Shown here: piece by piece, positions 43,344 to 55,071 of the stretch
How positions within the stretch are numbered: the first letter of the stretch is position 1
Layout of the letters: every line of letters begins with the position of its first letter
Origin: Methanohalophilus levihalophilus
GTDB taxonomy: Archaea; Halobacteriota; Methanosarcinia; Methanosarcinales; Methanosarcinaceae
Direction: 5' to 3'
Assembly (NCBI RefSeq): GCF_017874375.1
Contig: NZ_JAGGLK010000004.1
Coordinates: forward strand, 1-64,000
Length of the DNA: 64,000 nt
Translations under genes and position numbers: made by a program
Notes under the pieces: model-generated
Databases searched by the model: none
Seen by the model: only the letters and a program-made list of their open reading frames with translations
Told to the model about the DNA's origin: nothing

Positions 43344-43690
43344 TCAGATAAAGACCTCACCGCATAGAAAACTTTTTACCAAAAGTTCACCGCTACCAGT
43401 ATCAAACACAATAGTACGCCCATGATTCTTTCCTATGTCTTCAGCAATTATAGGAATGTCCAATCTGGACAGTGTTAATTTCGTTTCCTTAATATTTCGT
43501 TCTCCGATAGTCATCTATGCTGCCTTGCCAAAAGAAAACATATGTGCACCCCCAGCGAGTTTTGCCCAGAGACGGTTCTTTACAGCACCTTCATTTGCCA
43601 TATCACCTATCAGAGAAACAATCCCAGCATCTCCAAATTTTGAATGCCATGGGTTATAAATAAGATAACTCAATATTCCATATCGTGAGT
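43344..43690 (-). pseudogene. cheD: CheD relic (chemoreceptor glutamine deamidase), 5'-truncated, one in-frame TAG
   Basis: The minus-strand frame reads SKFGDAGIVSLIGDMANEGA, then LWAKLAGGAHMFSFGKAA, a TAG (43515-43517), MTIGERNIKETKLTLSRLDI, and PIIAEDIGKNHGRTIVFDTG before a TGA stop. This is unmistakably CheD: AKxxGGAxMF, IGERN, and EDxGxxxGRT are the family signatures. The N-terminal part with the catalytic GSC loop is missing and no start codon exists in frame. TAG sits at a variable position and could be pyrrolysine, but loss of the active-site Cys makes it a relic. Chemotaxis genes are otherwise absent here. Confidence 0.8.
43654..43662 (+). promoter_or_regulatory. TATA box for the leuA-ilvBNC operon
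   Basis: TTATAAATA; a transcription start near 43687 would give a leader of about 90 nt before the first conserved codons. It lies inside the upstream end of the CheD relic. Confidence 0.5.
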
Positions 43691-53505: not shown

Positions 53506-54482
53506 TCAATCAAGATCTATGTGCGGATTCAGATCACAACCTGTACACGGCAAGCACATTGTTTTTGAAATATCAGCCCTCAACTCATTTTCGTCTAAAA
53601 TCCTCCGAAGAAGGGTGTAAGCCTGAGCAACCGGTCCCTGGTTGGCCTTTCAACATCGATTTCGCCCATGCGCAGAGGATGCATACCGCCTGCACGAAGA
53701 ATGGGAACAACACCCATGGAAACGAGTTCTTCAAGCCCTTTTTCCACAGTTTCATCCGATTCACCCAAACCAATAATAAAATTCGAGAAAACCCTGTTTC
53801 TCCCAAATATGCTTACAGCTTCTTTCAGGTAGTTGAGAATTTCGTCCAGATCCTGATCTGGACACACCTTCGGATACAAGTGCCGATCCATGGTTTCAAC
53901 GTTGTACTTGATTTCATCTGCACCTGCATTTTTCAGGACAACAGAAGAATCCGGTGTCGGGTATACTGACACACCAATAGGAACATCGTGTTTTTTTACT
54001 GCCCTGACAACTTCAAGGGCACGTTTAACTTCATTTTCAGGAGTGCTTTCCACGCCCGAGGTTATAGAAATGGCTTCCAGTTTGCCTGTGGAATGAGCTT
54101 GTTCCACAAGTTCCAAAACCTCGTCGAGGGATTTCACCTTCCCATCAAGTTTTGGAACCGGACAAAATTTGCAATCAAATACGCATTTTTCGCTCATAGT
54201 GATAAATGCCTGACCGGGACAATGAAGCAGTTCCTCCTCAAGCTCACCTCTCACAAATTCCTTGCCACCCTTCATGATTACAATATCATTTCCATCCAAA
54301 ACAGCGCTTAGTGGCGACCCTTCATTCACAGCAAGGCGAACCCGATGACCATCGGATTTGAAAAAGAACGCAGTGCTACCTGCACCCGGTCCTGCAGTCG
54401 GAATGGTTATTTTCCCGATAAGGGATTCATCCATATCCACAGCACCGATTGCGATTAGCTCTGCTTTAACTTCCGGTTTCAT
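53506..54482 (-). pseudogene. radical SAM protein with a 1-nt frameshift near its C-terminus
   Basis: The main frame is 54482-53595 (295 residues) with radical-SAM motif CVFDCKFCPVPK. It ends ...RPTRDRLLRLTPFFGGF at a TAG, the only gene here that would use TAG. In the next frame the sequence continues AYTLLRRILDENELRADISK then TMCLPCTGCDLNPHIDLD and TGA at 53506. A lost G at a GGG near 53617 would join the parts into about 324 residues with a Cys-rich tail (MCLPCTGC) suited to an auxiliary Fe-S cluster. The stop lies 8 nt before the JAMM start. A real mutation, a programmed shift or a sequence error are all possible. Confidence 0.8.
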
Positions 54483-54531: not shown

Positions 54532-54942
54532 TCAAATTTCCTTGAAAACCTTCGCAAGGGATTCTCCTTTGACATGGATTGAAAATTCTGAAAAGTATCC
54601 AAATGGAGTTGTGTACACCTCGAAATTTCTGCTTTCAAGTTTTTCTTTGATTATTGAGATGATTTCTGTCGCGAATTCCGGCGATGAATTGCTGTTTGAC
54701 AGATGTGCAAATGAATGCAAGACTATCTTGTCTTTGTTCACTTTATTGAGATACCATTTGAGATTCCTTACTGCAGTTTTTATTACCTTGTTTTCCCTTT
54801 CTTCATCCTATGCTTCAACATGGATAAAAATAACAGCAGCGTCTTCTATCTTCTCCTCTTTCTCCATATCTTCTGCTGTTTCGAGGTTTTTTTCAAAGGT
54901 CTCAAACCAGAAGTCTTCGGTATCAAACATTAGTAATTTCAT
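54532..54942 (-). CDS. ThrRS editing-domain-like protein (tRNA-Thr_ED) with in-frame UAG
   Basis: The frame 54942-54532 gives 136 codons, the usual length of an archaeal stand-alone ThrRS editing-domain protein. A single TAG lies at 54808-54810 (codon 45), between VIFIHVEA and DEERENKVIKTAV. The rest reads ALNKVNKDK-type helix, then LHSFAHLSNSNSSPE and TTPFGYFSEFSIHVKGESLA, the signature of the D-aminoacyl-tRNA deacylase-like fold. It clears Ser from tRNA-Thr or D-amino acids. A GGTGA site precedes ATG. UAG is probably pyrrolysine or a suppressible stop; a dead gene is the alternative. Confidence 0.75.
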
Positions 54943-55071
54943 AATTCACCTTTCTGTTTCCATAGCTAAATGGAAGTGTATTTCCGGTAAATATAAGCAA
55001 TTCAACTGACAAAAATTGCCAGAATCAACAAAACATGCAGTCATTGCTTCCCAGAAACATATCACCACATG

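Follow-up and report, generated by a model that had tools for sequence, protein, structure and literature searches.

In-frame TAG in a standalone ThrRS-type editing-domain gene of Methanohalophilus levihalophilus: a probable pyrrolysine codon outside methylamine metabolism

Does the single in-frame TAG of a small editing-domain gene of Methanohalophilus levihalophilus end its translation, or is the codon read as pyrrolysine (Pyl)? The gene lies in a stretch of 64,000 nucleotides of contig 4, analysed as a whole and hereafter called the window; the genome comprises 2.12 Mb at a completeness of 98.8%. Its frame starts with ATG and comprises 44 codons, the TAG, and 91 further open codons before TGA (Table 1). 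The readthrough product matched the Pfam family PF08915 (tRNA-Thr_ED) over profile positions 1–137 of 137 with an E value of 1e-47, and it could be aligned with its relatives (identity up to 77%) end to end and gap-free on both sides of the TAG. The frame was thus as the initial annotation had described it: 136 codons, interrupted once at codon 45 and conserved on both flanks.

Table 1 Features of the editing-domain locus and of two damaged genes in the window.
Feature	Position	Strand	Remarks
Standalone ThrRS-type editing-domain gene (PF08915)	54532..54942	-	136 codons including TAG; ends in TGA
In-frame TAG, codon 45	54808..54810	-	Opposite Glu (GAG/GAA) in 20 of the 21 standalone relatives; the remaining one has Val (GTG)
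Shine-Dalgarno-like AGGTGA directly 5' of ATG	54946..54951	-	Consensus match only
Archaeal TATA-box-like TTATATTTA, about 46–54 nt 5' of ATG	54988..54996	-	Consensus match only
Radical-SAM gene, downstream neighbour	53595..54482	-	3'-end frameshift; out-of-frame TAG stop
CheD remnant, N-terminus lost	43344..43673	-	One in-frame TAG (43515–43517); probable decayed gene

The best relatives of the gene were standalone genes of Methanosarcinaceae (63–77% identity), followed by editing domains fused to threonyl-tRNA synthetase (ThrRS; about 30–36%). In its own genome, the sole other match was a full-length ThrRS with an intact editing domain; an intact second standalone copy, which the initial annotation had named as a finding that would speak against Pyl, was therefore absent. 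A comparison of synteny around the locus in relatives revealed no conserved neighbours. Two other copies were recorded in passing. In another Pyl-decoding genus (G026), a second standalone copy (L041:2060–2416) had a truncated start and one TAG, which was located elsewhere in the frame. A standalone relative with 51% identity (L039:6001–6405) was encoded on a contig assigned to the Nitrospirae by binning, which reflects either transfer or misbinning.

We then asked whether the organism can use Pyl at all. The pylT (CUA), pylS, pylB, pylC, and pylD genes were found as one cluster on contig 2, that is, the whole set whose presence had been proposed as a check. An exact pattern derived from Methanosarcina pylT gave no match in the genome; the tRNA-Pyl was detected by ARAGORN. 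All five methylamine methyltransferase genes (two mtmB, one mttB, and two mtbB) contained one in-frame TAG apiece, and pylS was present in all eight genomes of the genus.

The pylB gene itself ends in TAG (L047:4244–4246; also loci L156–L159 and L162–L166), overlapping the start of pylC. The same ending was shared by all eight Methanohalophilus genomes and by two further genera, and readthrough would append about 40 residues in Methanohalophilus. The pylB was 88% identical to that of one congener (G002) and only about 72% identical to those of the others. It is striking that this TAG has been kept in a genus from which TAG stops have otherwise almost vanished. We considered an autoregulatory role for it and set this idea aside, given that the open extension corresponds to the out-of-frame start of pylC and that the terminal TAG had already been noted for pylB of three other species (PMC2933860).

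To examine the use of TAG as a stop, we called genes by means of a codon-usage model across 937 kb of sequence, a sample that covered 44% of the genome. The 845 gene calls comprised 436 TAA, 395 TGA, and 14 TAG ends. The last group consisted of five methylamine methyltransferases, five internal TAGs in otherwise intact genes (the editing-domain gene, CutA1, a SAM methyltransferase, a PAS histidine kinase, and a PEF-CTERM protein), two frameshift artefacts (radical SAM and Rieske genes), pylB, and one ambiguous call of 48 amino acids. Hence, no more than 2 of about 840 genes have a true TAG end, although TAG makes up 17% of stop trinucleotides. In the window, the 69 calls ended in TAA (37), TGA (30), or TAG (2), and the two TAG calls were the editing-domain gene and the frameshifted radical-SAM gene, in agreement with the earlier remark that no intact gene of the window has a TAG stop. 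The complete genome of a sister Methanohalophilus (G003) gave a similar picture: 2 of 183 calls ended in TAG, both of them mtbB, leaving no true TAG end among 181 genes. In a relative without a pylS above the cut-off (G063), TAG ended 32 of 163 calls (19.6%), as expected from base composition.

If UAG is a dedicated sense codon, intact genes should be interrupted by TAG and not by TAA or TGA. A scan of the same 44% sample for stops flanked by coding signal yielded 15 TAGs, including those in a FemAB/GNAT protein and a second PAS kinase. At least six further genes were otherwise intact with a single TAG (CutA1, the SAM methyltransferase, the FemAB/GNAT protein, two PAS kinases, and the PEF-CTERM protein), and the TAG-containing genes appear functionally unrelated to one another. 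Pfam domains extended across the TAG in the CutA1, Methyltransf_25, Acetyltransf_6, PAS_3, and dCache_3 proteins. TAA or TGA breaks in intact genes were sought in this sample and none was found: the 20 candidates that were read fully proved to be two-gene junctions, and the other junctions were judged by eye only. Ten of these 20 candidates were put to Pfam, and only one weak match below the cut-off (Prominin, protein 1) spanned the joint. Of one-step nonsense mutations, 36% should yield TAG; the chance that seven otherwise intact non-methyltransferase genes would all be broken by TAG is thus about 0.0008 (0.359 to the 7th power). Taken together, the near absence of terminal TAG and the interruption of intact genes by TAG, and not by TAA or TGA, indicate that UAG is effectively a sense codon in this genome, and UAG as Pyl is the best reading of the genome-wide data.

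Several of these genes deserve a brief description. CutA1 (L076:14596–14922) had one in-frame TAG at codon 91, where the residues of its relatives varied. The SAM methyltransferase (L068:18903–19565) and the FemAB/GNAT protein (L068:16632–17768) are separated by about 1.1 kb, and in each the TAG lay inside a Pfam domain. The two PAS histidine kinases (L087:6666–8276 and L088:1–1497) contained one in-frame TAG apiece. In the PEF-CTERM gene, the TAG (L063:12229–12231) was located directly 5' of the PEF-CTERM-like sorting signal, so that only a readthrough product would carry the anchor. A dCache histidine kinase (L048:5209–6975) combined an in-frame TAG with a single-base frameshift ahead of the HATPase domain, near the C-terminus; together with those of the radical-SAM and Rieske genes, this frameshift may represent an indel error in the assembly.

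These frameshifts raise the question of whether the TAG of the editing-domain gene is itself an error of sequencing or assembly, the true codon 45 being GAG or GAA. Single-base frameshifts in three genes could mean that the draft also contains base errors, and one base separates GAG from TAG. However, the suspected errors are indels, not substitutions, and random substitutions should have produced TAA and TGA as well, whereas the otherwise intact genes showed TAG only. We therefore regard a sequence error as very unlikely.

Considering the genome-wide data, the locus is probably a standalone editing-domain gene of the DTD fold that is live, or was so until recently, in a genome that uses UAG for Pyl throughout, with codon 45 most likely read as Pyl and the residue probably tolerated. 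We infer the insertion of Pyl, the function of the protein, and the neutrality of the change from sequence. In the proposed course of events, a GAG or GAA codon for Glu45 would have mutated to TAG. PylS would charge tRNA-Pyl (CUA) with the Pyl made by PylBCD, the charged tRNA would read the UAG, and the ribosome would place Pyl there and finish the 136-residue protein; Pyl is expected at codon 45 since tRNA-Pyl reads UAG and almost no gene relies on UAG as a stop. Some truncated product of 44 residues might also be made. When an amber codon was introduced into M. acetivorans, decoding as Pyl reached only about 20–30% (PMC2933860), which counts against the proposed reading. A PYLIS-type stem-loop was sought 3' of the UAG, and none stood out (z of -0.9; 35 of 200 shuffled sequences folded equally well); such an element is not essential (PMC2933860).

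The conservation of codon 45 was different from what had been supposed. The TAG had been said to occupy a variable position of the family; this applied to the more distant ThrRS-fused domains, whereas the standalone relatives had Glu, encoded mostly by GAG, in all but one case, and TAG in none. The TAG is thus a private one-step change of a near-invariant Glu and is not conserved among orthologues. By analogy with neutral cases such as the tRNA-His guanylyltransferase (Thg1) of M. acetivorans, such conservation would not be needed. Accordingly, the Pyl reading put forward initially is strengthened by the pyl genes and the genome-wide distribution of TAG, and weakened by the near-invariance of the position and the restriction of its TAG to one lineage. 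Because the TAG is unique to this species and nearly all relatives have Glu, a neutral replacement derived from GAG or GAA, as in Thg1, is more plausible than a Pyl with a function.

The predicted structure points in the same direction. AlphaFold, in a model of moderate confidence (pLDDT 73), placed residue 45 in a loop ahead of the first helix, and this residue does not belong to the seven that PMC4491819 names within 6 Å of the scissile bond of the ThrRS domain. From this location in a predicted loop, outside the set of residues that line the ThrRS editing site, Pyl at position 45 would probably be tolerated and non-catalytic. The opposite idea, that Pyl45 is functional, for example by changing tRNA binding or by tying synthesis of the protein to the Pyl supply, draws on the position of codon 45 directly after the conserved HVE motif and ahead of helix 1, where RNA contacts could be affected. 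The Glu of the relatives and their lack of TAG, the absence of residue 45 from those named around the scissile bond, and the apparent lack of a functional relation among the other TAG genes all argue against it, and it seems very improbable. A broader version, in which UAG is a dedicated Pyl codon in Methanohalophilus and a working Pyl lies beside the RNA-binding face of a standalone protein of the aminoacyl-tRNA deacylase type, is also improbable, little better than a long shot. If it were true, the supply of the 22nd amino acid would feed directly into a protein of translation fidelity.

What the protein does can be approached through the editing domain of Pyrococcus abyssi ThrRS. The equivalent of His83 was retained, and Tyr120, Lys121, and Glu134 corresponded to Phe117, Ser118, and Lys131. 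In the other standalone copies, the position of Lys121 was occupied by Ser or Tyr, so that the lysine of an actively editing domain was lacking there as well. Lys121 positions the catalytic water in the ThrRS domain, and its mutants lose most of the editing of Ser-tRNA(Thr) (PMC4491819). The replacement of this lysine by Ser118 makes it doubtful that the standalone protein edits Ser-tRNA(Thr); the standalone proteins probably either act on a different substrate as DTD-fold deacylases or lack catalytic activity.

We also examined whether the gene is dying. Its terminal branch in a 20-gene codon tree had an omega of 0.047 (background, 0.070), or 0.038 for codons 46–136, and omega fixed at 1 was worse by 17.6 lnL units for the whole gene and by 15.2 for codons 46–136. 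A neutral phase at the end of this branch, with about 17 changes expected, lowers the fit by just 2 lnL units. Since omega is averaged over a long branch and a late neutral phase is this cheap, the test is also compatible with a young nonsense mutation that killed a dispensable gene, with Pyl readthrough being incidental and the locus on its way to loss. Standalone copies were frameshifted or truncated in G012, G025, G026 (contig C13), and G057, and missing from G002–G005, and the intact full-length ThrRS could make the gene dispensable. The window also holds the CheD remnant and the radical-SAM gene. In the latter, the conserved C-terminus (...TMCLPCTGCDLNPHIDLD) runs on in another frame past the TAG; the frameshift rules out this TAG as a true terminator, and the good conservation of the C-terminus makes a sequencing indel possible. 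The broken copies of the relatives and the damage to these two genes lead us to keep gene death as an unlikely but real alternative. Against it stand the clean remaining frame across 136 codons with intact Shine-Dalgarno- and TATA-like sites, the bias of breaks in otherwise intact genes of the 44% sample to TAG with no TAA or TGA, and the presence of the pyl genes, by which UAG is not a null allele. Pyl insertion into a live or recently live gene hence remains the preferred reading.

Few Pyl proteins outside methylamine metabolism are proven or well supported. The editing-domain protein is small, easy to express, and found in a cultivable genus in whose genomes terminal TAG is almost absent; with its predicted lineage-specific Pyl, it would allow a direct test of UAG as an ordinary sense codon of archaea, and the gene also bears on how proteins drift toward use of the 22nd amino acid. 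Furthermore, Methanohalophilus genes such as CutA1 come out split or truncated when the standard code is used for annotation.

The closest known case is Thg1 of M. acetivorans, whose Pyl is confined to its lineage and not essential (Heinemann 2009; reviewed in PMC2933860). Both are non-methyltransferase genes of Pyl-decoding methanogens with one lineage-specific in-frame UAG, a sense codon in the relatives, and neutral evolution as the likely explanation. In Thg1, Pyl was physically observed and the activity was tested, whereas Pyl in the editing-domain protein, which belongs to a different family and a different genus, is a prediction. In Ca. Methanomethylophilus alvus, TAG accounts for 1.6% of stops, and 16 Pyl proteins other than the methyltransferases have been predicted (Borrel 2014, PMC4153887). 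The Methanohalophilus genome resembles it in the great rarity of terminal TAG and in the in-frame TAGs of many unrelated genes; it differs in belonging to another order of methanogens and in having still fewer TAG ends, and the editing-domain and CutA1 proteins are absent from the list for Ca. M. alvus. The earlier claim of a new type of pyrrolysine protein accordingly holds for the protein family and not for the phenomenon, because non-methyltransferase Pyl proteins were already known or predicted. A 2025 study in Science by Kivenson and colleagues is said to have shown by proteomics that some archaea read every TAG as Pyl, and the Methanohalophilus genome bears the same signature of UAG as Pyl. 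The protein itself shares one fold family over its full length with the N-terminal editing domain of archaeal ThrRS (PF08915; P. abyssi domain, PDB 1Y2Q and related structures), from which it differs in being encoded by a standalone gene and in the replacement of Tyr120, Lys121, and Glu134.
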